Shown here: positions 2,606 to 24,262 of the stretch, piece by piece
Numbering within the stretch: the stretch's first letter is position 1
Layout: the number at the start of each line of letters is the position of its first letter
Translations under genes and position numbers: made by a program
The notes under the pieces: model-generated
Seen by the model: only the letters and a program-made list of their open reading frames with translations
Told to the model about the DNA's origin: nothing
Databases searched by the model: none
Source of the DNA: a virus
Strand: one strand, 5' to 3'
Length of the DNA stretch: 27,864 nt
Virus record (IMG/VR): IMGVR_UViG_3300013132_000204
Span: 1-27,864 of that record

Positions 2606-4131
2606 GCGCCGCCGCCTCTGTGATGACCGACCAGATGCGGATGCTTCTGGAGTTCCGGTCCGACTTTGAATACTACGCGCCGCATGCGCTCAAGATACGC
2701 ACCAAGGACGGCAAGGTCGTACCGTTTCGCCTGAATCGGGCGCAGACCTATGTGCATCGGCGCCTCGAGACCCAGCGCCGCGACCATGGCCGCGTGCGTG
2801 CCCTGGTGCTGAAAGGCAGACAGCAAGGCATGTCGACCTACATCGAAGGTCGCTTCTACTGGCTGACCAGCGGCACGCCCGGTGTTCGCGCTTTCATCGT
2901 GACGCACGAGGACGCCGCGACCGCCAACCTGTTTGAAATGGCCGCGCGCTACCACGAGCACTGTCCGGCTTTCCTGAAGCCGCGCACCGGCCGCTCGAAC
3001 GCGAAGGAACTCATCTTCGATAGGCTGGACAGCGGCTACAAGGTCGCGACCGCAGGCACAAAAAACGTCGGTCGCTCATCGACCATTCAGTACATGCACG
3101 GCTCCGAGGTCGCGTTCTGGCCGCACGCCAAGGATCATCTTGCTGGCCTCGGGCAGACCATCCCGGATGCGAACGGGACGGAGGTCATTCTCGAATCGAC
3201 CGCGAACGGGCCCACCGGCGAGTTCTACAGCCTGTGGAACGACGCGACGTGCGGCCGGAACGACTACATCGCGCTGTTCGTGCCGTGGTACTGGCAAGAG
3301 GAGTACCGCCGCGCCGATGCGGTTGCGACGCTCGAGCTGACGGCCGAGGACAAGGACTATCAGGAGACGTTCGGCCTCGACGATGCGCAGATGGCGTGGC
3401 GCCATGCCAAGATCCGCGGCGACTTCCGTGGTGATGTCTCGCTGTTCGACCAGGAATACCCGGCCACCCCGGCTATGGCTTTCCTGCACATCGACGGCCA
3501 GACACTCATCAAGGCGACGCATGTGGTCCGCGCCTGCGCCCGTAGGGACCTGGAAGCGCGCGGCGCCCGCATCATCGGGGTTGACCCGGCCGAGTACGGC
3601 GACGACGACACAGCGATCATCTTCCGCCAGGGTCGCGTTGCGTCGGATCTCCTTCGTGTGCATGGCAAGTCGCCAATGGAGATCGTCGGCATTGTCGCGC
3701 GCATGGCTGACCGGCTGGGCGACATCGACGCGATCAACGTGGACTCGACCGGGCTGGGTGCTGGCATCGTGGATCGCCTCATCGAGCTGGGCTACCCGGC
3801 CAACCGCATCATGGTCGGTGAGTCCGCCATCGATGATGTGCAGTACGCGCGCCGTGGTGACGAGATATGGGGCGAAATGCGCGACTGGCTGGGCGACCTA
3901 TGCCAGATCCCGGATGACGAGGTGCTGCGCGGCGATCTGATCGCGCGCACGTACAGTTACGACTCGTCGCGCTGCATCAAGCTGACCCCGAAAGAGAAGC
4001 TGAAGGCCGAAAGCAAGAAGTCACCGGACGCCGGCGACGCGCTGTCGCTGACCTTCGCGACCCGATTCAACCCCAACTTCAAGGGCAAGAAGCTGAACCA
4101 TCAACGCCGCTCCCGTGGCAAGGTGCTGTAA
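2602..4131 (+). CDS. Terminase large subunit (packaging ATPase/nuclease)
   Basis: 509 residues, usual length. It powers translocation of phage DNA through the portal and cuts the concatemer. The N-terminal ATPase carries a deviant Walker A at residues 70-79 (LKGRQQGMST, the RQxGxS/T form usual in terminases), Walker B-like SEVAFW at 168-173, and coupling motif EST at 198-200 followed by ANG. The C-terminal RNase H-like nuclease has Asp328 in GVDPAEYGDDD, Asp381 in NVDSTGLG and Asp479 in SPDAGDALS, the expected acidic triad. It overlaps terS by four bases and lies four bases before the portal gene. All key residues appear present. Confidence 0.95.
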   Translation: MSAAASVMTDQMRMLLEFRSDFEYYAPHALKIRTKDGKVVPFRLNRAQTYVHRRLETQRRDHGRVRALVLKGRQQGMSTYIEGRFYWLTSGTPGVRAFIVTHEDAATANLFEMAARYHEHCPAFLKPRTGRSNAKELIFDRLDSGYKVATAGTKNVGRSSTIQYMHGSEVAFWPHAKDHLAGLGQTIPDANGTEVILESTANGPTGEFYSLWNDATCGRNDYIALFVPWYWQEEYRRADAVATLELTAEDKDYQETFGLDDAQMAWRHAKIRGDFRGDVSLFDQEYPATPAMAFLHIDGQTLIKATHVVRACARRDLEARGARIIGVDPAEYGDDDTAIIFRQGRVASDLLRVHGKSPMEIVGIVARMADRLGDIDAINVDSTGLGAGIVDRLIELGYPANRIMVGESAIDDVQYARRGDEIWGEMRDWLGDLCQIPDDEVLRGDLIARTYSYDSSRCIKLTPKEKLKAESKKSPDAGDALSLTFATRFNPNFKGKKLNHQRRSRGKVL

Positions 4132-4134
4132 ACC

Positions 4135-6846
4135 ATGGCCGCAGTCATGAACACCCCCGGCGCGCAGCTTATGCAGTCCGGCGCAACCGCGGACATTCTC
4201 GAACAGCAGGAGCGGCCGAGCGGCATCGGCCAGGCCGCGCCGATCACCGAGGAGGAATGGGGCCAGTGGCTGATTGAGATCCACGACCAGCCGCCGTTCC
4301 GCAAACAGCAGGACCGTGATTGCGACTACTACGACAACAACCAGCTGGATGCCGAGCAGTTGGCCGAGATTGAGCGGCGAGGCATGTTGCCGGTGGTCGA
4401 GAATCTGGTTCAGCCGACCATCGATGTGGTGCTCGGATTGGAAGCGAAGATGCGCACCGACTGGCGCGTGCAGGCCGATACCGACGAATTCCAGGACGTT
4501 GCCGAAGCGTTCTCGCAGAAGCTGCACGAGGCCGAGCGCGAGTCGCATGCCGATTACGCGCTGTCCGATGCCTACGCGAGCGAGGTGAAGGCAGGTCTGG
4601 GCTGGGTGGAGGTCATCCGCGCGCGCGACCCGTTCGAGTACCCCTACGAGGTCAACGCCGTCCACCGACGCGAGATGTACTGGGACTGGGCCAGCCGCGA
4701 CCGCACGATGAAGGATGCGCGGTATCTGTTGCGCCGCCGCTGGTTCGATGTCGATACGGTGGCAGCCTACTTCCCGCGCTTCAAGGAAGGACTGCGGCAG
4801 GTCGGCAGCGGCACCAACATCGACACATGGATCCGGGCCGACATGGAGGCCGCCGCGCGCGGCTTCGAGCTGGAATGGACAGGCCGCATGTCTACCGAGG
4901 AATGGGAATGGCGCGACACCAGCCGCCGCCGCCTCGCGCTGTTCCAGGTGTACTACCGCCGCCCGGTGCGAGGCTACGTGTTCAGCATGCCTGACGGCAG
5001 GCATGTCGAGTTCGACCCGCGCAACCAGTGGCACATGGCTGCCGTCGGCTCCGGCCGCGTGAAACCGCGCGTCGCGGTGTTCTCGAAGCTGCGGCAGGCC
5101 ATCTACTGCGGACCGTTCAAGCTGTCCGACGGCGACGTTGAGCGGCGAAAGACGCCTTACACCCCGTTCTGGGCCTACCGCGAAGACCTGACCGGTGTGC
5201 CCTACGGCCTCATTCGGTCGATGATCAGCCCACAGGACGAGGTCAACGCTCGTACCCAGAAGATGCTGTGGTATCTGGCCGCCAAGCGCGTGACCATGGA
5301 CAGCGACGCGCTCGACACCCAGCAGAACGACGTTCAGGAAATGCTTGAGGAAATTGCGCGCGCCGATTCGGTCGTGCAGCTGAACCCGAACCGGACCAAC
5401 CGCGACGACAAGGCGTTTCAGGTGAACGACAACCTGACCCTGGCCGATGCGCAGTGGAAGGTGCTGCAGGACAAGCGCGAAACATTGCAGAAGGTGCGCG
5501 GCATCTTCAACGCGATGCTGGGCAGCGAGGACGGCGCGCATTCCGGGATCGCGATCAACTCCCTCATCGAGCAGTCGATGACCGTGCTGGCGTCGATCCA
5601 GAGCAATTACCAGTTTGGCCGGCGCGTGGTCGGGGACGACATCGTCGAGCTTATCCGCCAGGACCACATCGGCCGCGAGGTCGAGATCCTCGTGGAAGGG
5701 CAGGGCGCCCGCAAGAAGACCATCATCCTGAACCAACGCGTGCGGGACGAGCAGACCGGGATGATCGTTCTCGAGAACGACGTAGAGCGCTCGCGGCTCA
5801 AGGTCGCGCTGGAAGATGTGCCGTCGACGCCGGCCTACCGCGCGCAGCAGATGCTCATCATGTCGGAGATCGTGAAGTCGGCGCCGCCCGAGATACAGGC
5901 CATCCTGTATCCGGTTTATTTGGAAGGCACCGAACACCCGAAGCGCAAGGAGCTGGCCGATCAGATCCGCAAGATGACCGGTACGCAGAACCCGGACGAT
6001 CTGCCTCCAGAGGAGCGCGCAGCGGTCATGCAGCAGCAGGCCGAGGCGGCAGACCTGAACAAGCGCATGGCGATGGCGCAGCTGGCCGAGCAGGAAGGCA
6101 AGGCCGAGACGGCCGTCGCCGCTGCCGCGAAGCTCCGCAAGGAGATCGAGACGCTGGGGCAGGGCATGGAAGGCGAGCAGGCCGCGGCCGTCGCCGAAAT
6201 CCAGAAAATGGCCGACGAGCAGATCCGCGCCATGGAGCAGAAGGCGGCGCTACTCGAGCAGGCCGTGAAGGACCGCAAGGACGAGATCGCGGCCAAGTAC
6301 AACGCCGAGGTCATGAAGGCCAGGTTGGGCGCCGCCGCCGAGGTCGAGACGGCCAAGGTCAACGCGAACAGCGAGCGCGTGATCACGGCGCTGGCCGAGA
6401 AGTTTGAGGAACTGAAGCGCGAGATCGCCGAGAAGGACGCCCAGATCGTGGCCGAGCGCGACGAGATCATGCGCAAGGTGCGTGAGGACCATTCCGGCGA
6501 GCAGTCGAAGCAGCTCGAAACTCTCATGAAGCAGATCGCGGAGGCCAGCGAGGACGCGGGCGACGCGATGACCGATGCGGTGAAGATGCTGGGCGAACAG
6601 ATGAAGGCCGCGAACGCTGAGATAGCCCAGGCGCTGAAGGCGGTGACGAGCACAGCCATAGCGCCGGCACAGGCGGCAACCGCCGCGCAGGACGATGGGG
6701 CCGTGGAAATCTCCCTCGAGACGGACAAGAGCGGCCGTGCGGTCGGCGCCGTGGTCAAGAAGGCCGGCGGCACGACGCGGTTCGCGATCAAGACGGATGC
6801 CAAGGGCAACCCCATCGGCGCGACGACGACGGGAGACAAGTCCTGA
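4135..6846 (+). CDS. P22-type portal protein with long coiled-coil C-terminus
   Basis: 903 residues; P22 portal is 725. It forms the dodecameric ring at the capsid vertex through which DNA is packaged and ejected. The core (about 1-620) has P22-portal-like features: a LPVVENLVQPTIDVVLGLEA stretch near residue 90, a wing region with WVEVIRARDPFEYPYEV, and a crown/stem region containing SGIAINSLIEQSM. From about 626 to 840 the chain becomes an almost continuous Ala/Glu/Lys/Gln-rich helix with strong coiled-coil character, which could form an extended barrel inside the capsid like the P22 barrel but longer. About 60 residues with beta character (ISLETDKSGRAVGAVVKK and after) close the protein. 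The start ATG is four bases past the terL stop, and its own stop overlaps the next start (TGATG). Confidence 0.9.
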   Translation: MAAVMNTPGAQLMQSGATADILEQQERPSGIGQAAPITEEEWGQWLIEIHDQPPFRKQQDRDCDYYDNNQLDAEQLAEIERRGMLPVVENLVQPTIDVVLGLEAKMRTDWRVQADTDEFQDVAEAFSQKLHEAERESHADYALSDAYASEVKAGLGWVEVIRARDPFEYPYEVNAVHRREMYWDWASRDRTMKDARYLLRRRWFDVDTVAAYFPRFKEGLRQVGSGTNIDTWIRADMEAAARGFELEWTGRMSTEEWEWRDTSRRRLALFQVYYRRPVRGYVFSMPDGRHVEFDPRNQWHMAAVGSGRVKPRVAVFSKLRQAIYCGPFKLSDGDVERRKTPYTPFWAYREDLTGVPYGLIRSMISPQDEVNARTQKMLWYLAAKRVTMDSDALDTQQNDVQEMLEEIARADSVVQLNPNRTNRDDKAFQVNDNLTLADAQWKVLQDKRETLQKVRGIFNAMLGSEDGAHSGIAINSLIEQSMTVLASIQSNYQFGRRVVGDDIVELIRQDHIGREVEILVEGQGARKKTIILNQRVRDEQTGMIVLENDVERSRLKVALEDVPSTPAYRAQQMLIMSEIVKSAPPEIQAILYPVYLEGTEHPKRKELADQIRKMTGTQNPDDLPPEERAAVMQQQAEAADLNKRMAMAQLAEQEGKAETAVAAAAKLRKEIETLGQGMEGEQAAAVAEIQKMADEQIRAMEQKAALLEQAVKDRKDEIAAKYNAEVMKARLGAAAEVETAKVNANSERVITALAEKFEELKREIAEKDAQIVAERDEIMRKVREDHSGEQSKQLETLMKQIAEASEDAGDAMTDAVKMLGEQMKAANAEIAQALKAVTSTAIAPAQAATAAQDDGAVEISLETDKSGRAVGAVVKKAGGTTRFAIKTDAKGNPIGATTTGDKS

Positions 6847-7724
6847 TGTATCTCATGGCGCTCGCAGATACCAGCCCGCACGCGCATTTCGAATCACTGC
6901 AGGCTGGCGTGCTGTCGGCCTGGGGCCTGCGCGATAACGTCGAGATACACGCCAACAACGTCTCCGAAAACTGGTCCTACGATGCCGTGGAGGATGCGGC
7001 TAAGTCGACCATGAACGGCGCGAACATCAGCTACGCCACGGCCGATCAGATCATCCTGCCCTTCGCTTCGGCCATCGACAGCAACGTCCACGACTACATA
7101 TCGTGGCAGTGCGAAGTGAAGTACGGCGCGGCCTGGGTCGGCGACCTCGGTGCGCTGCTGAACCACAAGGCCATCCGGCTCGACGACGCGGCGAAGCTTT
7201 TCAACGGCGGTGTCGGCGATGAGCGCATGCACGAGCTCCAGATGCGGTACTCGGTCACGGACGGCACGGCCGTCGCGGTGCCGACGCTGCGGAGCTACTC
7301 GTGCACGAACAGCCCCTCGACCAACGAGGATCCGCTGCGGGACAGCAACTCGAACCCGATCAACTGGCAGCCGGGCGGCTCGCGCTACTACCTGTCATCG
7401 TCGGGCAGCATCCCGGCCACGGATCACATGCAGTCTGGCAAGCCGTTCATTTTCCTGCCCAATACGTGGGTGCGCATCACCTACGTCTGGGACAAGGCGA
7501 CTGGGCTGGTCACGCTGACCATGGCCGACGCTGACAACCAGGCGGCGAAGGTGATCGAGTACCTGTCGTCGCGCAGCACTGGCCGCACCTGCGCCGACAC
7601 GCTGCGGTTCGAGTTCAACAGCAGCCAGACAGCGCCGCCGAACATGACGACGGATCACGACATCTGGTGCCGCAACGTCCTGATTGATGTGAACCCGATC
7701 CCGTTCGGCACGATGGCAGCCTGA
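6846..7724 (+). CDS. Putative lectin-like (LamG/concanavalin-type) virion protein
   Basis: 292 residues; I do not recognise a named family with confidence. The second half has a jelly-roll-like pattern: PFIFLPNTWVRITYVWD at about 200-216, then LVTLTMADADNQ, then LRFEFNSSQ and a final VLIDVNPIPFG. The NTWVRI...W...GLVTL...ADA arrangement is typical of LamG/concanavalin-like sugar-binding sandwiches. No signal peptide or TM segment is visible. It starts on the portal stop (TGATG), so it is co-translated with the portal, and begins the block of presumed surface proteins before the scaffold. A role in carbohydrate binding or capsid decoration is inferred from the fold pattern and neighbours. Internal Asn/Ser-rich sequence around 150-195 is probably loop. 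Confidence 0.6.
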   Translation: MYLMALADTSPHAHFESLQAGVLSAWGLRDNVEIHANNVSENWSYDAVEDAAKSTMNGANISYATADQIILPFASAIDSNVHDYISWQCEVKYGAAWVGDLGALLNHKAIRLDDAAKLFNGGVGDERMHELQMRYSVTDGTAVAVPTLRSYSCTNSPSTNEDPLRDSNSNPINWQPGGSRYYLSSSGSIPATDHMQSGKPFIFLPNTWVRITYVWDKATGLVTLTMADADNQAAKVIEYLSSRSTGRTCADTLRFEFNSSQTAPPNMTTDHDIWCRNVLIDVNPIPFGTMAA

Positions 7725-7758
7725 TGTACGCGGCTGACTGCTGTTTCAAGGTGTTACC

Positions 7759-8910
7759 ATGACCCTCGTCGCACTCCCTGGCTCGCCTATTCGTTGGCCT
7801 AACCCGTTCCCCAGCGGCGGCTTGCCGGCGCTCGCGGCTGCGTCTACGGCGGACGCGGTGGGCGAAATCATTGCGTTTATCGGGCATGTGCGATTTGCCG
7901 CAGGCGCGGGAACGTCCAAGACGTTCAGCAGCAGCGGCGGAAGACTGGGTTTTCGCACCGGCACCGTTGTGTGGGTGAATGGAGCGACGAATGTGCGGCT
8001 CGGCATTCAGGATGTGTCCGCAACGACTGGTCCCGTCATGCAGCCGGATCAAACGTGGACGGGCGAGACCTACGCTGACATCGTGCCGGGCGTGGATACG
8101 CTCAACTCTGCAGCGTGGAATAACATTGCAATGGACACCGGCAGCGGTCGCACGCTGACGCATGGTGATCTAATTGCCGTAGTTTTCGAAATGACGGCAA
8201 GGGGTGGCTCGGACACGTTCACACTGACTGGCCTCGCCGCATTGCAGTTGCAGCACCGCTCTTTGATGGTGCTGAAAACCGCCAGCTATGCCGCAGTCAA
8301 TACCATCCCGAACATCATTATCGAGTGCGACGACGGCACGCTCTGCACGCTGATGGGCGCGTTTCCATGCAGCAGCGTCACTACACGCACGTTCAACACT
8401 GGCACGGCATCGGCAGACGAGTACGGCAACCGCATCGTGCCGCCGTTTGCGTGTTCCGTGGATTCTCTGTGGTCTGCCGTGGATTTAGACGGTAACGCTG
8501 AATTCAAGCTCTACAGCGGCACGGCGGCCAGCCCCGTCGATGAAGCCGATGTGCAACTTGACGCGAATCAGCGTGCCTCGTCTGCAGGGCTGTTTCTTAA
8601 CGCAGGATTGGCGACCAAGGAAACACTGACGGCAGGCGCAGAGTACTTCGTTACCTGCCGGCCAACTTCCGTGACCTCGTTGTCACTTGCCGAAATAGGC
8701 GTCAACAGTAACGCGCATCTTGCTTTCTGGCCTGGTGGAGTGGACTGCTACAAAGTGACGCGCTTGGATGACGCGGGCGCGCTGACTGCCACGACAACGG
8801 CGGTATTTCTGATGGGTTTCGGCATCTGCGAGCTGGATGATGGGGCTGGCGGTGGCGGTGGAGGCGGTGGAATCAGTCGGGCGCGCGCCGGATCGGGAAT
8901 GGGATCATGA
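7759..8910 (+). CDS. Putative virion surface protein with oligoglycine hinge
   Basis: 383 residues, not assigned to a named family. The start at 7759 has AAGG upstream. The body is rich in Thr, Ala, Gly and Val with short alternating strands, suggesting beta-sandwich domains: one at about 40-170 (FIGHVRFAAG to ALQLQHRS) and a second at about 200-355 (TFNTGTASADEYGNRI, FKLYSGTAASP, EYFVTCRP). The C-terminus is distinctive: acidic ELDDGA, eight consecutive glycines (364-371), then ISRARAGSGMGS. Such a tail could be a flexible tether. Sampled lines of this gene carry less G+C (31 and 34 of 60 at 8161 and 8281) than a portal line (38 of 60 at 4861), a hint of different ancestry. Its stop overlaps the fibre start (ATGA). 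Confidence 0.6.
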   Translation: MTLVALPGSPIRWPNPFPSGGLPALAAASTADAVGEIIAFIGHVRFAAGAGTSKTFSSSGGRLGFRTGTVVWVNGATNVRLGIQDVSATTGPVMQPDQTWTGETYADIVPGVDTLNSAAWNNIAMDTGSGRTLTHGDLIAVVFEMTARGGSDTFTLTGLAALQLQHRSLMVLKTASYAAVNTIPNIIIECDDGTLCTLMGAFPCSSVTTRTFNTGTASADEYGNRIVPPFACSVDSLWSAVDLDGNAEFKLYSGTAASPVDEADVQLDANQRASSAGLFLNAGLATKETLTAGAEYFVTCRPTSVTSLSLAEIGVNSNAHLAFWPGGVDCYKVTRLDDAGALTATTTAVFLMGFGICELDDGAGGGGGGGGISRARAGSGMGS

Positions 8911-10106
8911 GTGAACGTATTCCGCAGTCCAGTTCGAAGCGCGTGGTGTTCCGCGCGTTTCTTTCCAGTGACCACGTAACGCCAGCGACCGGCAAAACCA
9001 TCGCGATCACGATCAGCAAGAACGGCGGCGCCTTCGCCAACCCCGCAGCGGGTGCAACGAACGCCACGGAGATCGCCAGCGGCTTCTATTACTTCGATCT
9101 CGGCACGGGCGACACCGACACGCTTGGCCCCTTGGCGTACCGGGGCGCCGAGGGCACTATTGACGATGTGGGCGATTGCTACACGGTTGCAACCGGCCTG
9201 GAGTTTGCAGCAAACGTAACGCAATTCGGCGGTGTCGCAGGCACATTCAGCGGCGGCCGGCCGGAAGTGAACGTCAGTCACATTTCCGGCGACTCAGCAG
9301 CGGCGGACAACTGCGAGGCGTGGTTCGACGGGACCGGGTACGCGGGCACGAACAATGTCATCCCGACCGTGACCACCGTCAACGGGCTGGCGGCTGGCGT
9401 GATTACAGAGGCCAGCATTGCGGCTGACGCCATCACGGCAGCAAAGATTGCCACGGGCGCCATCGACGCTGATGCAATAGCGGCGGACGCGATCACGGCG
9501 GCGAAGATCGCAGACGGCGCGATTGACGCCGCGACATTCGCGGCAGGTGCTATCAATGCCGCCGCCATCGCAGACGGCGCAATTGACGCGGCGACCTTCA
9601 CGGGCGGCACGCTGCTGGACGCGGCCGGTATTCGCGCTGCGCTGGGCCTTGCTGCGGCGAACTTGGACACGCAGCTTTCCGGGGTTCCGACAGCCGTCTG
9701 GGGCGCTGGGACACGCCAACTGACCGGAACACAGACGTTCAACCTGACCGGCAGCATCACCGGAAACCTCAGCGGCTCCGTCGGTAGCGTGAGCGGTTCC
9801 GTGGCCAGCGTCGCGGGGGCTGTGGGATCTGTAACTGGCGATGTCGGCGGCAACGTGGCTGGCTCTGTCGGAAGCGTCACCGGCCTGACCACTGCGACCA
9901 TCGCCGCAGCGGTATGGGGATACACACTTGAAGGCGCCATGACTGCCATCCATTGGGCGCGCATCGTTCTGGCGGCGCTGGCCGGCAAGTCGAGCGGTCA
10001 TTCAACGTCGTCCCCGGCATACCGTGACCTTGCTGATACCAAGAATCGGATCACGGCCACGACGGACGCTGACGGACGCACATCGGTGACCCTGGACGGC
10101 AGCTGA
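8907..10106 (+). CDS. Repeat-rich putative fibre protein
   Basis: 399 residues. An N-terminal beta domain (about 1-160; VFRAFLSSDHVTPATGKTIA, then GFYYFDLGTGDTD) is followed by thirteen five-residue repeats at about 168-232 of the type ADAIT/AAKIA/DGAID/AATFA, then a linker (LLDAAGIRAALGL). A glycine-serine-valine repeat follows at about 279-326 (GSVGSVSGSVASVAG type), and the C-terminus has AAAVWGYTLEG and DADGRTSVTLDGS. Period-5 and period-4 repeats of this kind build rigid beta-helical or beta-prism shafts, so an elongated fibre projecting from the virion is likely. It is coupled to its neighbours at both ends (ATGA at 8907, TGATG at 10104). Receptor binding is inferred, not shown. Confidence 0.65.
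   Translation: MSERIPQSSSKRVVFRAFLSSDHVTPATGKTIAITISKNGGAFANPAAGATNATEIASGFYYFDLGTGDTDTLGPLAYRGAEGTIDDVGDCYTVATGLEFAANVTQFGGVAGTFSGGRPEVNVSHISGDSAAADNCEAWFDGTGYAGTNNVIPTVTTVNGLAAGVITEASIAADAITAAKIATGAIDADAIAADAITAAKIADGAIDAATFAAGAINAAAIADGAIDAATFTGGTLLDAAGIRAALGLAAANLDTQLSGVPTAVWGAGTRQLTGTQTFNLTGSITGNLSGSVGSVSGSVASVAGAVGSVTGDVGGNVAGSVGSVTGLTTATIAAAVWGYTLEGAMTAIHWARIVLAALAGKSSGHSTSSPAYRDLADTKNRITATTDADGRTSVTLDGS
9423..9602 (+). repeat. Three 60-bp tandem repeats encoding pentapeptide-like repeats
   Basis: Three consecutive 60-base units align without gaps, sharing blocks such as gcgatcacggcggcgaag and atcgcagacggcgc at 60-base spacing (for example 9507 and 9567). Each encodes four five-residue units with a central Ile or Phe and flanking Ala/Gly/Asp. 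Third-position differences between units show the protein pattern is kept while the DNA drifts. Confidence 0.85.
9741..9884 (+). repeat. Gly-Ser-Val low-complexity repeat in fibre gene
   Basis: Encodes residues 279-326 of the fibre, built from variants of GSV, GSVGSV and GNV with Gly or Ser at nearly every second position. The DNA is degenerate (ggctccgtcggtagcgtg-like units). It is a different repeat class from the five-residue repeats upstream. Confidence 0.7.
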
Positions 10107-10597
10107 TGTTCTTCGATGCCTACTTTCACGCCGAATACTGGCAGGTTGGGTATTGGGCGCGGAGTACCGGAGATCCTGTGGTTGTCGTGCCGCCGGTGCC
10201 GTCCGGCAGCGGTGGCTACGACATCACCGACGACGACCACGAGCGCGAAGAACACTATCGCAAGCGTGCGGAGTACATCGCCAGACAGGTTGCGACACCT
10301 GTCTCGCCGAAACCTGCGCCGCTCGAGGTCGCAGCCAAGGCGCCGGCAGATCCGACCCTTTCGATACTTTCGACACTTCCGTCCCTGGGGCTTTCGGACG
10401 CTGAAACTGTCGCAGAAGTCGCTGTCGCAAGACCGGCGAAACCCCGAAAAGCGAAGCCTGTGGCCGTCGCAGACGATCCAGTCACGGCTGAAATTGCGGC
10501 AATCGAGTCAGAGATACTGGCCCAGGAAGCCGCTGACCTGGCCGCGCACAACCAACGTATTGAGGCCCTTCTGCTGATCATGGCAGTGGCGGCGTAA
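10106..10597 (+). CDS. Small protein with aromatic N-terminus, putative fibre-associated
   Basis: 163 residues, no recognised family. The first 20 residues are strikingly aromatic (MFFDAYFHAEYWQVGYWARS), followed by a Pro/Val linker, a short charged helix (DDDHEREEHYRKRAEYIARQ), a Pro/Ala/Lys-rich disordered stretch, and a C-terminal amphipathic helix (PVTAEIAAIESEILAQ through LLLIMAVAA). Short phage proteins with spaced Tyr/Phe/Trp at the N-terminus often follow fibre genes, which suggests an accessory or linker role in fibre attachment. It starts on the fibre stop (TGATG), so the two are probably made in step. No TM segment is convincing, although the last ten residues are hydrophobic. Confidence 0.55.
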   Translation: MFFDAYFHAEYWQVGYWARSTGDPVVVVPPVPSGSGGYDITDDDHEREEHYRKRAEYIARQVATPVSPKPAPLEVAAKAPADPTLSILSTLPSLGLSDAETVAEVAVARPAKPRKAKPVAVADDPVTAEIAAIESEILAQEAADLAAHNQRIEALLLIMAVAA

Positions 10598-10622
10598 CAG
10601 AACGTAATCAGAGGACACGACC

Positions 10623-11129
10623 ATGCCCAGCGCACCACTACCGTCCACGTTCAACTTCGCCGAGAAGGGCATCGCGTTCGGTTTCGACCCGGACATCAGC
10701 CCGGCGGGCCTGCTGGTCCCTGCGTACATGACCAACAACGCCATGCACGTATGGGTGAAGTCGAAGCAGGCCGGTGAGCGCGACGAGAATGCGACCAACG
10801 GCAGCGACTTCATGGAGGTTTCCGCGGCCTGCATGGTGCAGGAAGTGGCTTTCGGGGCGGGGGACACGGTCCTGAGCACCGGCCCGGCCATTCTCTATGG
10901 CTACCGTGTCACGACAGCGCTCAGTGCCCACGCATGGACCATCGATGACGCCGCAGGAACCGTGCGAGTCCGGATCCTTGCCTCCAGCCCGGCCGGCCTT
11001 CAGACGCTACCCGGTCCGGTCATCTTCAAGACCAGTTGTACGGCCAATGTCGGGACGAGCGCATCGGCAGGCGTGATCGAGTTCTACTTCCGCAAGGTGC
11101 CTGCTGGTACCGTGGCCTGGGCGTACTGA
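10623..11129 (+). CDS. Putative virion structural protein, beta-rich, unknown function
   Basis: 168 residues starting at ATG 10623 with GAGGA seven bases upstream. The sequence has alternating short strands (IAFGFDPDISPAGLLVP, NNAMHVWVKSK, MVQEVAFGAGDTVLSTG, VRVRILASSP, VIEFYFRKVPAGTVAWAY), suggesting a small beta-sandwich. No catalytic motif, signal or TM segment is seen. It lies between the fibre-associated protein and the esterase, with one base separating its stop from the esterase ATG, so it is probably coexpressed with both. It could be a decoration or adaptor protein for the surface module; I do not recognise the family. Confidence 0.6.
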   Translation: MPSAPLPSTFNFAEKGIAFGFDPDISPAGLLVPAYMTNNAMHVWVKSKQAGERDENATNGSDFMEVSAACMVQEVAFGAGDTVLSTGPAILYGYRVTTALSAHAWTIDDAAGTVRVRILASSPAGLQTLPGPVIFKTSCTANVGTSASAGVIEFYFRKVPAGTVAWAY

Positions 11130-11130
11130 T

Positions 11131-12570
11131 ATGACGCTGACGGCTGGCGTCACGACGCTCGAGTCGATGCTCCACCCCTATCCGGCGCAGACGATTGGCG
11201 GCTACAGCGTCGGCTACAGCACCGCCTATGGCTCACAGGCCAAGACACGGTCATTCCGGGGACGACTGCCGGCCGGATACACCGCGACGAAGCGCTACCC
11301 GCTGGTGATAGCACTGCACGGTGGTCGTTCCGGCGGCGAAGACCAAGAGACCATGACGCAGTTGTCGGCGCGCGCCGACCGCGATGGGTTCATTGCCGTC
11401 TACCCCGATGGTCTGGGCTGGGACATCGTCCAGGTTCTGGGTGGCGGCTCAGGGAGTCTGACGTCGATCACGGTGGGCGGTGACGAGATCCTGACCGGCA
11501 CGGTGAACTGGACCACGAACGCCGCTACCACGGCGGGCCTGCTGGCTGCTGCCGTGGGTGCGAACGGTTACACGGGCGTCGCGGCGGGCGACTTCGTCTA
11601 CTTCGCGGGTCCGCACGGCGGCAACGTGCAGGTCGTCGGGACCATGTCTGAATTTATCGCCAAACTGAATCCGGGCTGGAACGCGTCCGATCAGGTCACT
11701 GGCTTCCCGGCGCCGTCGGCTGCCTCGCTGGCGATGGCCGGCTGTCCCTCGAGCTACGTGAACACCGACACATGGGCCGAGCGCTGGCACCTGCCTGATG
11801 TCGACTTCATTCGGCAGCTGATCGGCTGGGTGAAGCGCAATGCCTCCGTCGATGACCAGCGCATCTACATCATGGGCTTCTCGAACGGCGCACGCATGGC
11901 GCACCGCTGCGCGCGTGAACTGTCGGATCTTGTGGCGGGTGTCGGCTGCATGGGCGCCGGGATCATGCTGACGAACTACGACACCAACAGCCCCTTCCGC
12001 AACGTCCCGGCGCGGCCGGTGCCGCTCATCTACATGCACGGCACGCGCGACCCTCTCGCTTACTACGGCGGCGAGTACCCGTACCCCGGTGGTGGCGGGC
12101 CGGCGGATGGCGACTTGATTAGCTACAACCTGGGCAACGCCTACTACCTGAACCCGGACGAGACGGTGAAGGAGTACGTGCTGCAGGCCGGTGGCGACCC
12201 GACGAAGTACTCGCAGGTCGTGCTGCCCGAGGTGAACAACGATATCTACGACACATCGATGGTCGTGCGCCGCTGGAACGCACCATCTGGCACTGACTGT
12301 GACGTCGAGCTGTGGCGCCTCATCAACACCGGGCATACCTGGCCGATGCTGGGCGCCGAGAATTGGGCCTACGTGACCGGCAACTGGGCAACCGACATCA
12401 ACTTCATCGGTCGGCCGAACTATCAATTCAGCGCGACCGACACGATGCTGAAATTCCTGCTGCGCCATCGCTGGGACAGCAATGCGCCCGTGGCGCGGGC
12501 GTCGACCGCGACGCATACGCGTGAAGCGACGCGCCAGTACGTGACCAACCGCGCCGCCTCACGGCGCTGA
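11131..12570 (+). CDS. PHB-depolymerase/LpqC-type esterase with inserted domain
   Basis: 479 residues, longer than the ~300-350 usual for this alpha/beta-hydrolase family. Visible catalytic parts are the oxyanion HGGRSGGEDQ at 63-72, YPDGLGW at 91-97, nucleophile elbow GFSNGAR with Ser251, the acid Asp307 in HGTRDPL, and His402 in NTGHTWP. These belong to the secreted polyester/feruloyl/acetyl esterase group (PHB depolymerase, LpqC). Between YPDGLGW and VDFIRQLIGW, about 120 residues are inserted (about 98-218), including ITVGGDEILTGTVNWTTNAA and a YTGVAAGDFVYF segment that resemble small beta domains in phage tail proteins. No signal peptide, so it is probably virion-borne or released at lysis. 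A likely substrate is an ester group on a host surface glycan or polyester, but specificity cannot be read. Last gene of the block before a terminator. Confidence 0.82.
   Translation: MTLTAGVTTLESMLHPYPAQTIGGYSVGYSTAYGSQAKTRSFRGRLPAGYTATKRYPLVIALHGGRSGGEDQETMTQLSARADRDGFIAVYPDGLGWDIVQVLGGGSGSLTSITVGGDEILTGTVNWTTNAATTAGLLAAAVGANGYTGVAAGDFVYFAGPHGGNVQVVGTMSEFIAKLNPGWNASDQVTGFPAPSAASLAMAGCPSSYVNTDTWAERWHLPDVDFIRQLIGWVKRNASVDDQRIYIMGFSNGARMAHRCARELSDLVAGVGCMGAGIMLTNYDTNSPFRNVPARPVPLIYMHGTRDPLAYYGGEYPYPGGGGPADGDLISYNLGNAYYLNPDETVKEYVLQAGGDPTKYSQVVLPEVNNDIYDTSMVVRRWNAPSGTDCDVELWRLINTGHTWPMLGAENWAYVTGNWATDINFIGRPNYQFSATDTMLKFLLRHRWDSNAPVARASTATHTREATRQYVTNRAASRR
12551..12567 (+). other. Hairpin in 3' end of esterase gene
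   Basis: gcgccg at 12551-12556 and cggcgc at 12562-12567 form a perfect six-base stem with a five-base loop, just before the stop codon. It is the first of three hairpins leading to the terminator at 12604. It has no T-run of its own. Confidence 0.4.
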
Positions 12571-12603: not shown

Positions 12604-12626
12604 AACCCGCTTCGGCGGGTTTTTTT
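12604..12626 (+). terminator. Rho-independent terminator after the esterase
   Basis: The seven-base stem aacccgc/gcgggtt with a ttcg tetraloop is followed by a run of Ts to 12626. It is a textbook intrinsic terminator on the + strand and separates the surface-protein block from the scaffold gene. The remaining 104 bases to the scaffold ATG show no convincing -35/-10 pair. Confidence 0.88.
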
Positions 12627-12730: not shown

Positions 12731-13663
12731 ATGGACTCAATGAACAACACCGAGTTTGACCTGGCGACGATTGACCCGGATTCCCCGGAATTCGCAGCCA
12801 TGTTGGACAAGGCGATGGGCGCTGAAGAAGAACTCCAGGACGAACAGGTCGAAACCAGCGCGACGGCCGGCGCAGCCAGGAGTATGGGGAACGAGGACAA
12901 AGCAACCGGCATCCTGGCCGCAGATGGCAAGCACATCATCCCGATCGATGTGCTGCGCAGTGCGCGCGCTGCTGAAGCGCAAGCACGCGAAGCCGCGGCC
13001 GCCGCGATAGCGGAACTCGAAGCACTCAAGGCGGCTGCCGCCAAGAGTGAAGCGGGCGACGAGATCGAAGTGGATGTCGAGCAGTCGGACGAACTCGATG
13101 CACAGCTGGCGACGCTCGCGGAGGACTACCCGGAACTGGGTGGGTTCGCCAAGAACCTCGCTGCGCAGGTGAAGGCGATGCGCGATGTCGTGAGTCAGCT
13201 CGCGGCAGACCGTGAAGCCAATGCGACGCAGGAGCGCGTTCAGCGACAGTTGAGCGTGCGCGAAGCCATCGACAGCAATCCGACCTTGCTCACATGGGAG
13301 CAGAGTGATCCAGAAGCGTGGTCGCGTGCCGTTGCATACGACAAGCTGCTGCGCGAACGGCCGGACTGGCAGGGGAAACCCATTCAGGAACGGTTCGAAC
13401 AGGTCGCGAAACTCGTCCAGGTCGATTACCCCAGCGCCAAGAAGCCCGTCGGCACCGCACCGAAGACGGACAACGGTATCGCATCGAAGGCCAGAGAGGC
13501 GCTCGCAGCAGCGAGTGACCTCGAGATCGAATCGCTGACTCAGATCCCGGGCGGTACGCCGCCGAACGATCAGGAATTGGCGGGACTGTCCGTGACGCAG
13601 CTCGAAGCAATGTTCGAGCGCAACCCGGACAAGATCGACGCACTTCTCATGCGCTACGCCTGA
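12731..13663 (+). CDS. Capsid scaffolding protein
   Basis: 310 residues, acidic and Ala/Glu-rich. The ATG at 12731 has AAGGTG at 12721. Short N-terminal sequence (DLATIDPDSPEFAAMLDKAM) leads to helical regions with coiled-coil character at about 72-106 and 120-178, then a conserved-looking AIDSNPTLLTWEQSDPEAWS segment at about 179-198 with YDKLLRERPDWQGK after it, and a C-terminal helix (SVTQLEAMFERNPDKIDALL). This is the usual composition and position of scaffolds in P22-like phages: immediately before the coat gene, assembling coat subunits into a procapsid and then leaving. Terminators of nearly the same sequence lie on both sides. Confidence 0.8.
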   Translation: MDSMNNTEFDLATIDPDSPEFAAMLDKAMGAEEELQDEQVETSATAGAARSMGNEDKATGILAADGKHIIPIDVLRSARAAEAQAREAAAAAIAELEALKAAAAKSEAGDEIEVDVEQSDELDAQLATLAEDYPELGGFAKNLAAQVKAMRDVVSQLAADREANATQERVQRQLSVREAIDSNPTLLTWEQSDPEAWSRAVAYDKLLRERPDWQGKPIQERFEQVAKLVQVDYPSAKKPVGTAPKTDNGIASKAREALAAASDLEIESLTQIPGGTPPNDQELAGLSVTQLEAMFERNPDKIDALLMRYA

Positions 13664-13693
13664 CACCGTCCTCGGTTCAACAACCCACACATG

Positions 13694-13714
13694 ACCCGCC
13701 TCGGCGGGTTTTTT
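13694..13714 (+). terminator. Rho-independent terminator between scaffold and coat genes
   Basis: Stem acccgc/gcgggt with loop ctcg, followed by six Ts ending at 13714. The stem is the same as that of the terminator before the scaffold gene; the hairpins differ by one loop base. It lies 30 bases after the scaffold stop and 28 bases before the coat ATG. Confidence 0.85.
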
Positions 13715-13742: not shown

Positions 13743-15038
13743 ATGACTGCGACTTCCATTCCGTCCAGCAGCGGGTTGGCGAACAAGCTGATTTCTGTCG
13801 CGCTGTTTGCTCAGACCTGCCGCTCTCCCAGCATCGCCAACATGCTCACCGGCCCCGCGCCGCAGGCAAGCGAAGCTTGTCGCAAGCTCCAGAGCCAGTC
13901 GTCCGCCGGCTATCCGTGCGTGCGCGTGACCAACCTCCAGAAGACCTGGGGCGACAAGATCACGATGGACTGCGTCAACATCGTCGGTGGCAAGCCCATC
14001 GTCGGTGACGTCAACGCCGAAGGCAAGGGCCGGCCGCTGTCTTTCAGCAGCCAGGAATTCGTCATCAACCTGCTCACGCAGGTGCTGGATGTCGGCGGCA
14101 AGATGACGCAGCAGCGTACTCGCCACGATCTTCAGATGCTGGCGAAGGACATCGCACGCGGCTACATGGCGCGTCTCGAGACCTGCCAGACGCTGGTTCA
14201 CCTGGCCGGCGCCCGTGGCGAACAGGCTGGTGATTCGTGGCCGGTGCCGCTTTCGAGCGACGCCGACTTCGCGGACATCATGATCAATCCGGTCAAGGCG
14301 CCGACCTACAACCGGCACTTCGTGTGCGATCACACGACCACGACCGATCTGGTCAAGGGCGGTCAGCAGATCCCGAACCTGACCAACTCGTGCTTCCTGA
14401 AGCTCGAACACATCGACTGGATGCGCACCTATCTCGACAATCTCGAGTTCCGCATGCAGCCGGTGAAGATCGCCGATGACCCGGCCGCCGAAGACGAGCC
14501 GCTGTACGTCCTGCTGGTGCCACCGAATTCGTGGCGTCACCTGCTGACGAACACCAGCGGCGCGGTGCTGCGGACGTTCCACCAGAACGCGTTCCAGCGG
14601 GCGAACTGGGGCAGCAAGCATCCGCTGTTCAAGGGCGAAGTCGGGATCTGGAACAACATCCTCGTCAAGAAGGTCGAGTACTCGGTCTACTGGGCGGCGA
14701 ACGGTTCCAGCACGACCAAGTACAACGCCAGCACCGACACCGCCGGCGAGGAAAGCGGCACGGCGACGATGCCGACCATTTCCGGGTGGCAGGTCGAGCG
14801 CTGCATGTTGCTGGGCGCCCAGGCGGTCGCCAACGTGTACGGCCGCAATCAGTCGTCGGACTACTACTACGGCTGGCTGGAGAACAAGTACAACTTCGGC
14901 CGTGCCAAGGAAATCGGCGTCGAAATGATGAACGGTAAGGGCAAGGTGCGTTTCTCGCCCAAGGATGCGACGGGCACTCCCATCGCTACCGATCACGGCG
15001 TCACCATCATCGACGTGGCCGCGAAGGCCATCCAGTAA
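13743..15038 (+). CDS. Major capsid protein, N4-gp56/DUF4043 type
   Basis: 431 residues forming the icosahedral shell. The start has AGGAG at 13730-13734, eight bases upstream. The family signature runs GDKITMDCVNIVGGKPIVGD (70-89), EGKGRPLSF, VLDVGGKMTQQRTRHDLQML (114-133) and LVHLAGARGE (151-160), matching N4-gp56/DUF4043 capsid proteins with an HK97-type fold. Further on, EDEPLYVLLVPPNSW and WGSKHPLFKGEVGIWNNILV correspond to the later conserved blocks. Position between scaffold and decoration protein fits. The gene has its own terminator upstream and a strong ribosome-binding site, as expected for the most abundant virion protein. A P22 gp5-type coat was considered, but the motifs fit DUF4043 better. 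Confidence 0.88.
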   Translation: MTATSIPSSSGLANKLISVALFAQTCRSPSIANMLTGPAPQASEACRKLQSQSSAGYPCVRVTNLQKTWGDKITMDCVNIVGGKPIVGDVNAEGKGRPLSFSSQEFVINLLTQVLDVGGKMTQQRTRHDLQMLAKDIARGYMARLETCQTLVHLAGARGEQAGDSWPVPLSSDADFADIMINPVKAPTYNRHFVCDHTTTTDLVKGGQQIPNLTNSCFLKLEHIDWMRTYLDNLEFRMQPVKIADDPAAEDEPLYVLLVPPNSWRHLLTNTSGAVLRTFHQNAFQRANWGSKHPLFKGEVGIWNNILVKKVEYSVYWAANGSSTTKYNASTDTAGEESGTATMPTISGWQVERCMLLGAQAVANVYGRNQSSDYYYGWLENKYNFGRAKEIGVEMMNGKGKVRFSPKDATGTPIATDHGVTIIDVAAKAIQ

Positions 15039-19160: not shown

Positions 19161-19399
19161 TGGCGGTCAAGAAGCCATCGCTACCCCTGCCGTCTGACAG
19201 GGGATTCGCGGCTGCAGCAAAAGAATGCCTCGAGCGGATCATGGGACGCCGCGGCGGACGCACCGAGAAAGTCCCGGCCATCGCACTCGACACCCTCACC
19301 AGCGCGCCGACGGCCGCTGACTTCAACACCCTGATGGCCGCGCACGAGACGCTTCGCGCGCGCTTCAACGATCTGCTGGACCAGCTCGAGGATCCGTAA
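19160..19399 (+). CDS. Small conserved tail-region protein, unknown function
   Basis: 79 residues. The N-terminus is basic with Pro (MAVKKPSLPLPSDRGFAAAA), followed by a helix (KECLERIMGRRGGRTEK) and a C-terminal helix (APTAADFNTLMAAHETLRAR then FNDLLDQLEDP). The final helix has heptad spacing that could mediate oligomerisation or binding to a neighbouring tail protein. Start and stop both overlap adjacent genes by one base (TGATG at 19158 and TAATG at 19397), so it is part of the nozzle-fibre operon. No known domain recognised; a tail accessory or fibre-attachment role is possible. Confidence 0.6.
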   Translation: MAVKKPSLPLPSDRGFAAAAKECLERIMGRRGGRTEKVPAIALDTLTSAPTAADFNTLMAAHETLRARFNDLLDQLEDP

Positions 19400-20580
19400 T
19401 GGCAAAGCTCAAGTACACCGACAACGCCGCCTCGCTGCTGACCGTTGCGGTCCTGAACACCGACGTTCCCGCGTCGCTTATCCTGACGTCCGGCACCGGC
19501 GCCAAATTTCCCGCGCTGTCGGCCGGCGACTGGTTCCCGGTTATCGTGATCAAGGCCGCGACGCTGGCCTACGAAGAAATGCGCGCCACCGCCCGCAGTG
19601 GCGACACCATCACCGCCACGCGCGCGCAGGGCGGCACCACGGCGCTGACGTTCGACATTGGTGACGTCGTCTACCTGGGCTCGACAGAGAGCTTCATCGA
19701 CGAATTCCTCATGACTGAGGACGCTCAGGGCGGAAAACCCCACTGGTTGGGCCTCGTGAGCGGCACGGACACGCTGACCGCTGGCGCCACGCCCGCAATC
19801 ACGGCCTACGCGGCCGGTCAGCTGTTCACCTTTCAAGCCGAGGCCGACAACACCACGGCCGTCACCATCAACATCGACAGCGCCGGTGCGCAACGCATCA
19901 TCGACAACAACGGCGCCGAACTCACCGCCGGCATGCTCAAGACTGAAGGCGTCTACCAGATCCAGTACGACGGCGCCGACTTCCGTTTGCAGACCACGCC
20001 GGCACCGGCGCTTGCCAGTACCACCGTGGCGGGCCTGTTCCGCATCGCCAGCACCGCCGAAGTGCTGGCCGGCGCCGCCCTGGACGCGGCCGTGACGCCG
20101 TTCACGCTGGCGCGCGCGCGTGTCGGCGAAGTTGTCATGTGGGTGAGCGCATCCGCCGTGCCGACTGGCTGGCTTGAGTGCAACGGCCAGAACTTCACAT
20201 CGGCGACCTATTCCGACCTGGCGGCCCTGCTGGGCACGACATGGGGCACGCCCAGTGTCGGCCTGACGACCACGCCGAACTTTTCCCGCCGTGTCCCGAT
20301 GGGGGCCGGCGGCACCGGGACCGGCACGATCGGCAACGCGGTCGGCAATACCGGCGGCGCGGAGTCCGTGAACCTCGCACACACGCACACGCAGCAAGGC
20401 ACGTTCACCACGAGCGTGAACAGCACCAACATCGGCGACGACAACCAATCGCCGCCAACGACTGCAGCCAAAGACCACACGCACACGGTCACGATTTCCG
20501 GCAGCACGGCCTCAGCGCTCACCACGACCTCGCTGATCCAGCCGGCAGCCATCGTGAAGTTCATCATCAAGGCGGTGTAA
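19399..20580 (+). CDS. Tail-collar-domain fibre protein
   Basis: 393 residues. The C-terminal ~150 residues carry a phage tail collar domain: GEVVMWVSASAVPTGWLECN, then YSDLAALLGTTWG, TPNFSRRVPMGAGG, and two HTH metal-site-like motifs (His328-Thr-His330 and His360-Thr-His362), ending in AAIVKFIIKAV. Such domains occur at the tips of short tail fibres. The N-terminal ~200 residues are Thr/Ala-rich beta sequence, including DTLTAGATPAITAYAAGQLF, and probably form the virion-attachment and shaft part. It follows the nozzle and a small accessory protein, fitting a fibre at the tail. Host-binding specificity cannot be read from sequence. Confidence 0.85.
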   Translation: MAKLKYTDNAASLLTVAVLNTDVPASLILTSGTGAKFPALSAGDWFPVIVIKAATLAYEEMRATARSGDTITATRAQGGTTALTFDIGDVVYLGSTESFIDEFLMTEDAQGGKPHWLGLVSGTDTLTAGATPAITAYAAGQLFTFQAEADNTTAVTINIDSAGAQRIIDNNGAELTAGMLKTEGVYQIQYDGADFRLQTTPAPALASTTVAGLFRIASTAEVLAGAALDAAVTPFTLARARVGEVVMWVSASAVPTGWLECNGQNFTSATYSDLAALLGTTWGTPSVGLTTTPNFSRRVPMGAGGTGTGTIGNAVGNTGGAESVNLAHTHTQQGTFTTSVNSTNIGDDNQSPPTTAAKDHTHTVTISGSTASALTTTSLIQPAAIVKFIIKAV

Positions 20581-22736: not shown

Positions 22737-24262
22737 TGGAGAGAGGATCAGCACTCGCCGGCGGACTCGAGCGCGGCTACCGGCTGGGCCTGCTTGGCCG
22801 ACAAGCCGACAACGCCGAGGAAGACCGCGCATGGCAGCAGGAACAGCGCGCCCGTGAGCGGAAAGGGTGGAACGAAGAAGACCTCCTGAAGGACTTCGAA
22901 GCCAACCTCGTCGCGACGCCGGCACCGACGCCGCCCCCGGATCTGCCCGCAGGTGTGCAGCCGATCGCCCAGGCAGGTGCCGATGCGAATGGACTGGCTC
23001 CGGCGGCCGCCGCTGCACCGGCAGCCAAGCAGGAAAGCCACCTCGACCGCTACAGCACGACCGTGCAGCGCGCGTTCCAACTTCTGGATGACCCGAAGTA
23101 CGCCCCAGTGCGCGGTAAGGCGCTTGAGCGGATCACGGCACTCAGCAAGCAATCGGCCGAGATGAATCAGCTGATGGTGGAGGAGGCGCGTCAGCGCGCG
23201 CTGCCGCACATGCGCACGCTTTACTCCTCGGGCGTCGGCGATGACCAGAAGTCGGTCGCACTCTCGAGCCTCATGACCGAACTCTACCCGGACGGCCGTC
23301 AGTACCGCGCGCAAGTGTCGGGCGACGCAATCACCATTCTGGACGAGAAAGGCCAGCCGATGACCGGGCCCGACGGCAAGCCGATGGCAATGACCATGGC
23401 CGACGTCGACACCATGGTTCGTGATGGTCTGGCGACGCCGGAAGCGTTCTTCAACATCCGCCAGGGCGCGATCGAATCGCGCGCCGCCGCCGCCATCAAG
23501 GAAGCGGACTACCAGCGCACGCGGAAGGACAAGCTCAACGACCGGGAATACACCGCCAATCAGGAACGGAGCAAGGAATCCCGCGCCGAGGCGCGCGCGC
23601 TACGTCAGGACCGCCGCAACTTCATATCGAAGGCCATGGCCGCGTTCGACAAGGATGCCGCGGCGGGTCTGGTCGATTCGAAGGAGCGCGTCGCCTATCT
23701 CGAGCAGGTTCGCGCAACGGCAAGCGAAACCTACGGAGGGAGCGATCCCGCGAACCCGGTACCAGGTACCGGGTTGCCAAAGCCCAACCCTGCACAGCCT
23801 GCCGGGTTGGGCGCGCCGGGCACAGTCATCGACGTCGATCTGGACACACCTGCGCCCGCCGCAGCGCCCGCCGCTGGTCTGCCGCCCGTGCCTGTGCCGA
23901 AAGGTGCATCCGCGCCGACGGGTGCCCCTGAGATCGGCATGCCTGACGATCTCTCCATCGAGCCCACGGCCGTGGAGAAAGTCGGCAAGGCCATCGCCGG
24001 CACTGCCGCCGGCGCCGTCGCCGGCCTTGGCGAAGCTGGTCGGGCGATCCAGGCCAAGGTGCCGACCAATCTGGAAAACACCACCCGCACCGTGAAGACC
24101 CTTCGCGCCGCCATGGGCACTGGTAAGCCGCTCACGCGTGAAACGGTCGGCCAGGTGCGCGAGCTGGCACGCCAGCCGGATGACGCACTGATCGCCGCCG
24201 GCCTGAACCCGCGCGAAATCCAGACCGTTCGGGCCATCGCCCAGAAACTCGGAGCCCGATAA
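22736..24262 (+). CDS. Internal/ejection-type protein, Pro/Ala-rich
   Basis: 508 residues from the ATG at 22736 (TGATG with the previous stop); a GTG at 22733 in frame would add one residue. The order is a helical N-terminus (LERGYRLGLLGRQADNAEED), a Pro/Ala linker, a helical region (TVQRAFQLLDDPKYAPVRGK, then QSAEMNQLMVEEARQRALPH), a short beta part (DAITILDEKGQPMTGPDGKP), a charged coiled coil (TANQERSKESRAEARALRQD), a Pro-rich linker at about 340-400, and a Gly/Ala-rich hydrophobic segment (AIAGTAAGAVAGLG) near 425. Composition and place between the S74-type protein and the giant ORF match P22-like ejection proteins that cross the cell envelope with the DNA. The stop overlaps the next start (TAATG). 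Confidence 0.6.
   Translation: MERGSALAGGLERGYRLGLLGRQADNAEEDRAWQQEQRARERKGWNEEDLLKDFEANLVATPAPTPPPDLPAGVQPIAQAGADANGLAPAAAAAPAAKQESHLDRYSTTVQRAFQLLDDPKYAPVRGKALERITALSKQSAEMNQLMVEEARQRALPHMRTLYSSGVGDDQKSVALSSLMTELYPDGRQYRAQVSGDAITILDEKGQPMTGPDGKPMAMTMADVDTMVRDGLATPEAFFNIRQGAIESRAAAAIKEADYQRTRKDKLNDREYTANQERSKESRAEARALRQDRRNFISKAMAAFDKDAAAGLVDSKERVAYLEQVRATASETYGGSDPANPVPGTGLPKPNPAQPAGLGAPGTVIDVDLDTPAPAAAPAAGLPPVPVPKGASAPTGAPEIGMPDDLSIEPTAVEKVGKAIAGTAAGAVAGLGEAGRAIQAKVPTNLENTTRTVKTLRAAMGTGKPLTRETVGQVRELARQPDDALIAAGLNPREIQTVRAIAQKLGAR
23753..23775 (+). repeat. Perfect 11-bp inverted repeat inside coding sequence
   Basis: aacccggtacc at 23753-23763 is followed, after one base, by its exact complement ggtaccgggtt at 23765-23775. 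The pair encodes part of the Pro-rich linker (NPVPGTGLPKP) of the ejection-type protein. Confidence 0.75.
23782..23812 (+). repeat. Second inverted repeat (9-bp stem) in same linker
   Basis: gcccaaccc at 23782-23790 and gggttgggc at 23804-23812 form a perfect nine-base stem with a 13-base loop. It lies six bases after the upstream palindrome. No T-run follows, so a terminator is not supported. Confidence 0.7.

Follow-up and report, generated by a model that had tools for sequence, protein, structure and literature searches.

The interval between the portal and scaffold genes of this phage is probably a cargo slot, occupied here by a mobile virion appendage cassette (genes g2 to g4) and an esterase (g6). 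The window analysed, a stretch of 27,864 bases from IMG/VR, carries six ORFs on one strand (g1 to g6) which fill positions 6846-12570, between a P22-type portal gene and the scaffold gene. The locus belongs among phage surface-appendage modules.

The left border of the slot is the portal gene (4135-6846, plus strand; PF16510, 1e-100; phrog_156, 9e-131). The right border is a scaffold-like gene (12731-13663, plus strand; phrog_479, 8e-37), the product of which is 39-41% identical to its counterparts in the relatives L002 and L007; the major capsid gene follows (13743-15038, plus strand; PF13252, 9e-93). A P22-like portal followed by a scaffold and a PF13252 capsid is the arrangement of a P22-type head module, and the families and their order are those of F116, Stx phage P27 and the Bcep22-like phages. 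Portal and scaffold are not adjacent in the window: they are separated by 5.9 kb of fibre and enzyme cargo, whereas the gap in six published phages of the same lineage (CF418P1, Stx phage P27, F116, 8P, Vibrio douglas 12A4 and BcepIL02) is 0.01-1.2 kb.

Counted from the portal stop through g6, the gaps between genes are -1, 34, -4, -1, 25 and 1 bp, and a further 160 bp lead to the scaffold gene; the ATG of g1 (292 aa; 6846-7724, plus strand) overlaps the portal stop by 1 bp. An intrinsic terminator with a 7-bp stem, a 4-nt loop and a run of T lies 3' of g6 (12604-12621, plus strand). No convincing promoter was found 5' of g1 in the window, and the block is probably transcribed with the late head genes, ending at this terminator. 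With secure flanks and this ORF spacing, the coordinates and cassette-like layout agree with the earlier note, which had described a six-gene block from portal to scaffold with overlapping or abutting members and a terminator at its end. That note also placed a second fibre at the usual position, and a Collar-domain fibre is indeed found at 19399-20580. GC3 is 0.64-0.73 in g2 to g4 versus 0.83-0.87 in the portal, capsid and terL genes; this is a weak argument for a cassette because the GC3 of the scaffold gene is also lower (0.73). A second terminator, a near copy of the one at 12604, lies 3' of the scaffold gene (13693-13710); the scaffold gene thus has similar terminators on both sides.

Relatives were gathered with portal and capsid profiles from viral contigs and bacterial genomes. 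Slot genes were called by simple ORF rules, many of the contigs are fragments, and near-identical records were left out of the collections. The portal-to-scaffold gap lies between -7 and 7,735 bp (median 805) in 164 distinct relatives; it exceeds 1 kb in 76, 2 kb in 54 (33%) and 4 kb in 16. Because the gap spans 0 to 7.7 kb, adjacency of portal and scaffold is not a constant feature of the lineage. The slot has the greatest length variation of the head junctions measured, with a standard deviation of 1,712 bp versus 128 bp for scaffold to capsid and 465 bp for terL to portal; a stretch between two genes on the tail side is also variable (standard deviation 1,390), yet on a constant large base. 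Near relatives disagree in slot length: it is 0.4 kb in L009 (capsid identity 63%), 6.7 kb in L007 (71%) and about 9 kb in the contig which holds L008 and L089 (overlapping ends; 62%). The flanking core genes are conserved; for example, the gene at 16186-16821 matches 104 of the same relatives by tblastn. Homologues of g1 to g6 were sought by tblastn in 165 relatives, and none was found apart from a weak match to the g3 repeats (the N-terminal domain of g3 was found by profile).

Other cargo takes the place of these genes. The relative with the highest capsid identity over the matched segment (74%), L002, encodes a NosD/beta-helix protein (5e-8) directly 5' of the scaffold, and a family of 21 loci (L135/L153) has a beta-helix protein in the slot (4e-16, 2e-12). 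L007 has two adjoining related proteins 5' of the scaffold, one with a weak, below-cut-off Beta_helix match. The slots of L131 and L149 encode PF14099 polysaccharide lyases. A Cupriavidus numazuensis prophage (L174:11998-17441) has an Ala-rich fibre, a 766-aa tailspike which resembles Klebsiella phage EPS depolymerases, and an AT3-SGNH O-acyltransferase; the trio is a possible adsorption plus serotype-conversion set. Lysozymes, a holin, methyltransferases, GNAT, a transposase and regulators make up further cargo. Given this variety, the slot is a general insertion site in which surface-active cargo is frequent but not exclusive. The earlier note's interpretation is thereby supported in part, namely that the block is a swappable cassette concerned with the surface: the six-gene set is not kept in relatives, the slot is variable, and alternative surface cargo is found there.

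Some slots hold cargo of other kinds. Those of L064, L073, L113, L036 and L039 carry apparent lysis genes, among them a lysozyme or peptidase and holin- and spanin-like genes, and that of a Brenneria prophage (L204:12299-13846) encodes a colicin-like protein (PF03515, PF09000). Several slot proteins of L007 (12568-19200) and L068 (12545-16277) have signal-peptide-like starts, which are odd in virion proteins. A hydrophobic N-terminal region of 100 aa (46%) is common to L007:15529-16113 and L089:5318-5896. A C4 antisense RNA is found at L039:4885-4967, and a tRNA (L067:14739-14810) lies within the L067 slot. PF23140 (podophage GP4 fibre I) has one entry in the slot Pfam tally; two candidate fibres failed to match it, and it was not used.

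Such contents also bear on the idea that the block is moron or lysogenic-conversion cargo, expressed from the prophage or released from the cell, with an esterase which acts on host or environmental polymers and not from the virion. We regard this as improbable. The acyltransferase, GNAT, methyltransferases, colicin-like protein and transposases of other slots fit it, as do the signal-peptide-like starts in L007 and L068, but the block itself has no promoter 5' of g1, shares a coding overlap with the portal gene and is nearly gapless on the late strand; in addition, none of g1 to g6 has a signal-peptide-like start, and g3 and g4 are of the fibre-module type. A virion appendage cassette is the preferred reading; the non-virion cargo of some slots (lysis genes, transposase, regulators) counts against it.

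The centre of this cassette is g3 (399 aa; 8907-10106, plus strand), a fibre gene with an N-terminal domain, degenerate repeats and a conserved C-terminal domain. The repeats match tail fibre family phrog_892 (2.8e-11). At its C-terminus the protein shares 55% identity with the last part of a fibre-like protein of phage MW202621. The latter is encoded between portal and capsid; both flanking proteins are unrelated to the portal and capsid of the window. A scan of viral contigs with the C-terminal domain (A5 family; 9918-10103, plus strand) matched at least 110 contigs, 80 of which were analysed. In each of the 81 matches, at most 8 aa separate the domain from the end of the protein. The g3-type fibre with a YF adaptor is a family defined in the present analysis, and g3 has the A5 domain at its C-terminus as the family does.

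The next gene, g4 (163 aa; 10106-10597, plus strand), encodes a putative YF-repeat adaptor with an aromatic N-terminus, an A/P/K linker and a hydrophobic C-tail. Proteins were assigned to the YF class if they have at least six aromatic residues in the first 30, typically as MFGxRYFGxRYFGxRYWG. The g4 product (MFFDAYFHAEYWQVGYW...ALLLIMAVAA) falls in this class; it combines the aromatic-repeat N-terminus with one of the two C-tail types, hydrophobic or acidic, looked for. The gene 3' of a g3-type fibre is of the YF class in 41 of 65 distinct loci, versus 27 of 858 control ORFs (3.1%; p 3e-36). A strict hydrophobic C-tail is found in 9 of 273 slot genes versus 13 of 1240 (p 0.01); this enrichment is treated as weak because in the YF set the tail is seen in 3 of 65 genes and is not enriched. 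The g4 product and a slot protein of L007 have a GGxD...EHYxxR stretch in common (30% over 96 aa). A profile built on slot proteins of the g4 type recovered nothing beyond its own training set and near-identical contigs.

Seven contigs, six of them distinct, have a recognised P22-type portal upstream and a recognised capsid downstream of the fibre (L293, L294/L298, L296, L299, L314 and L319). In all of them the portal comes first, followed by small proteins, the fibre, the YF gene, the scaffold and the capsid; the window agrees, save that it has g5 and g6 in addition, 5' of the scaffold. The g2 gene (383 aa, glycine-rich C-terminus; 7759-8910, plus strand) is also a partner of the fibre gene: homologues occur in four contigs, L293 (6e-45), L306, L304 and L283, each time 5' of a g3-type fibre. 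Judged by gene content and order, the g2-g3-g4 core is a cassette which recurs in divergent phages. The fibre and its small aromatic partner recur next to head genes in many unrelated phages, which suggests that they belong to a widespread but little-described system of surface attachment; no description of the fibre/YF pair was found in the open-access literature, and novelty is provisional.

We infer that the products of g2 to g4 are present in the virion and that g4 has an adaptor role. The g3 product would be an elongated fibre consisting of its N-terminal domain, the repeats and the conserved C-terminal domain, with g2 as its beta-rich partner. The g4 product would be a small adaptor, the YF-repeat N-terminus and hydrophobic C-tail of which probably link the fibre either with the virion or with a different subunit. 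As an extracellular-type serine esterase, g6 probably strips ester groups off a polymer on the host surface, which would give the fibre access to its receptor; for g1 and g5, a role as structural or ligand-binding subunits is assumed.

Whether such an appendage would be mounted on the head or on the tail can be approached through its neighbours. When the nearest large genes around g3-type fibres were counted by PHROG family, terminase, portal, head scaffolding, head morphogenesis and head maturation protease came out first, and there were two minor tail matches among the 25 families listed; the counts are not independent, since one member may match several families. By the seeds used, 62 of the 80 A5 contigs have no portal or capsid anchor, and in four anchored contigs the fibre is 5' of the portal. 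Placements in tail regions also occur. A fibre with a g3-like N-terminal domain (40% over 72 aa) is encoded 3' of the tail nozzle in L138 and L146, preceded in L146 by a LamG-like gene. The cassette of L286 is part of a siphovirus tail module, with a tail-tube-like gene on one side and the tape measure on the other, and adjoins a diversity-generating retroelement (L286:6433-9837); this has a reverse transcriptase ORF (6989-8245) and a 113-nt repeat pair which is 83% identical, and is directly 5' of the g3-type fibre and YF gene.

These tail placements are the ground for a different account, that an ordinary tail-fibre module has been relocated beside the portal, with g3 and g4 binding the tail hub and gene position alone being unusual. 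The N-terminal likeness of g3 to the L138/L146 fibre, the LamG-like gene and the L286 cassette agree with it, but in all seven doubly anchored contigs the fibre is between portal and capsid (in four others it precedes the portal), and most of the weight in the neighbour tally falls on head and packaging families. We find this account less likely. Taken together, the recurrence of the cassette and its placements in L138/L146 and L286 indicate a transferable appendage module. For the window phage, mounting of the cassette on the head is slightly preferred on the evidence of gene neighbourhood, because packaging and head genes predominate among its large neighbours. An extension of the appendage reading to tailed phages in general is tentative: YF-repeat adaptors might hold fibres with a common C-terminal domain on the capsid or at the portal vertex, and such fibres, with esterases or other surface enzymes as exchangeable cargo, would be encoded between portal and scaffold so as to assemble with the procapsid.

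Head fibres are known from other phages. Those of phi29 have been proposed to aid cell attachment (PMC7602432), and head fibres have been described in crassviruses (PMC10172136). These and T4 Hoc are accessory surface proteins, as the products of the window cassette would be; no family match links the cassette to any of them. The predicted role of g6 likewise has a parallel in the tailspike esterases of the N4-like phages G7C and Moo19/B2 (PMC11654681), which are phage surface enzymes acting on ester groups for receptor access. In those phages the esterases are tailspike proteins, whereas g6 is of the PHB-depolymerase/feruloyl-esterase type and is a separate gene 5' of the scaffold.

The g6 gene (11131-12570, plus strand) encodes a 479-aa alpha/beta-hydrolase esterase. 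Its best solved match is the feruloyl esterase 9j07 (1e-11). The match falls into two pieces, g6 residues 18-96 and 221-314, which are adjacent in the solved protein; bacterial (proteobacterial) relatives match as the same two pieces. The product is therefore a hydrolase split by about 120 phage-specific residues (approximately residues 97-220). An ALHGG motif is present, together with a G-x-S-x-G elbow (GFSNG at 249), an acid motif of HGTxD type (HGTRD at 303) and a candidate catalytic His (GHTWP at 401); this is a reading of motifs, of which GFSNG and HGTRD align with 9j07. Hydrolase core and active-site motifs are as in the feruloyl esterase/type-1 PHB depolymerase hydrolases (9j07, 8daj, NF050058), from which g6 differs by the insert, the lack of a signal peptide and sub-cut-off family scores. 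Searches of the insert for a known phage domain by PHROG, tblastn and hhalign gave nothing, and no close relatives of g6 were found in viral contigs and phages.

By fold class, g6 is a feruloyl-esterase/PHB-depolymerase-type hydrolase. One specific possibility, which the matches to NF050058 (short-chain-length PHA depolymerase, 2.8e-28) and TIGR01840 (2.3e-10) might suggest, is that it is a depolymerase of polyhydroxybutyrate and attacks PHB granules in the infected host. This is very improbable: both scores are below the curated cut-offs (99.2 bits versus 150 and 40 bits versus 108), the best solved match is a feruloyl esterase, and other slot enzymes act on polysaccharides. Because of the types of cargo in neighbouring slots, the most likely substrate of g6 is predicted to be an ester on a surface or extracellular polymer.

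The remaining genes are less well characterised. The earlier note's labels of repeat fibre (g3), aromatic N-terminus (g4), glycine-tailed (g2) and esterase (g6) stand, while "lectin-like" for g1 finds no supporting family match: g1 gave no Pfam, PHROG, NCBIfam or phage tblastn match, and none to lectin/LamG or jelly-roll families. A comparison of g1 with the PF14099 polysaccharide lyases of other slots returned an hhalign probability of 0.2%, and that assignment was dropped. AlphaFold2 models made without homologues were unusable for both g1 (pLDDT 32) and g6 (pLDDT 31). The g5 gene (168 aa; 10623-11129, plus strand) plausibly encodes a beta-rich protein; it has no family match in Pfam, PHROG and NCBIfam, and a weak hhalign match to the protein which occupies this position in L010. 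Relatives of g1, g5 and the g6 insert were looked for and none was found.

Receptor-binding genes are usually looked for in the tail module. If a recurrent fibre-adaptor cassette in the head module does carry exchangeable polysaccharide-active enzymes, host-range determinants are being overlooked. The pairing of the g3 C-terminal domain with a YF-repeat gene directly after it would then serve as a sequence signature for finding them in metagenomic phages, and it becomes testable whether phage heads bear receptor-binding or enzyme-bearing fibres more often than supposed.

Two further features lie outside the slot. In L002 the capsid gene (2673-4891) is interrupted by about 900 bp with an HNH-type ORF (3191-3871); a group I intron was considered, and there was no Rfam match. 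In the window, an ORF of at least 1,201 residues (24262-27864) runs off the contig end; it may encode a large injected or antirestriction-type protein of the kind known from relatives.
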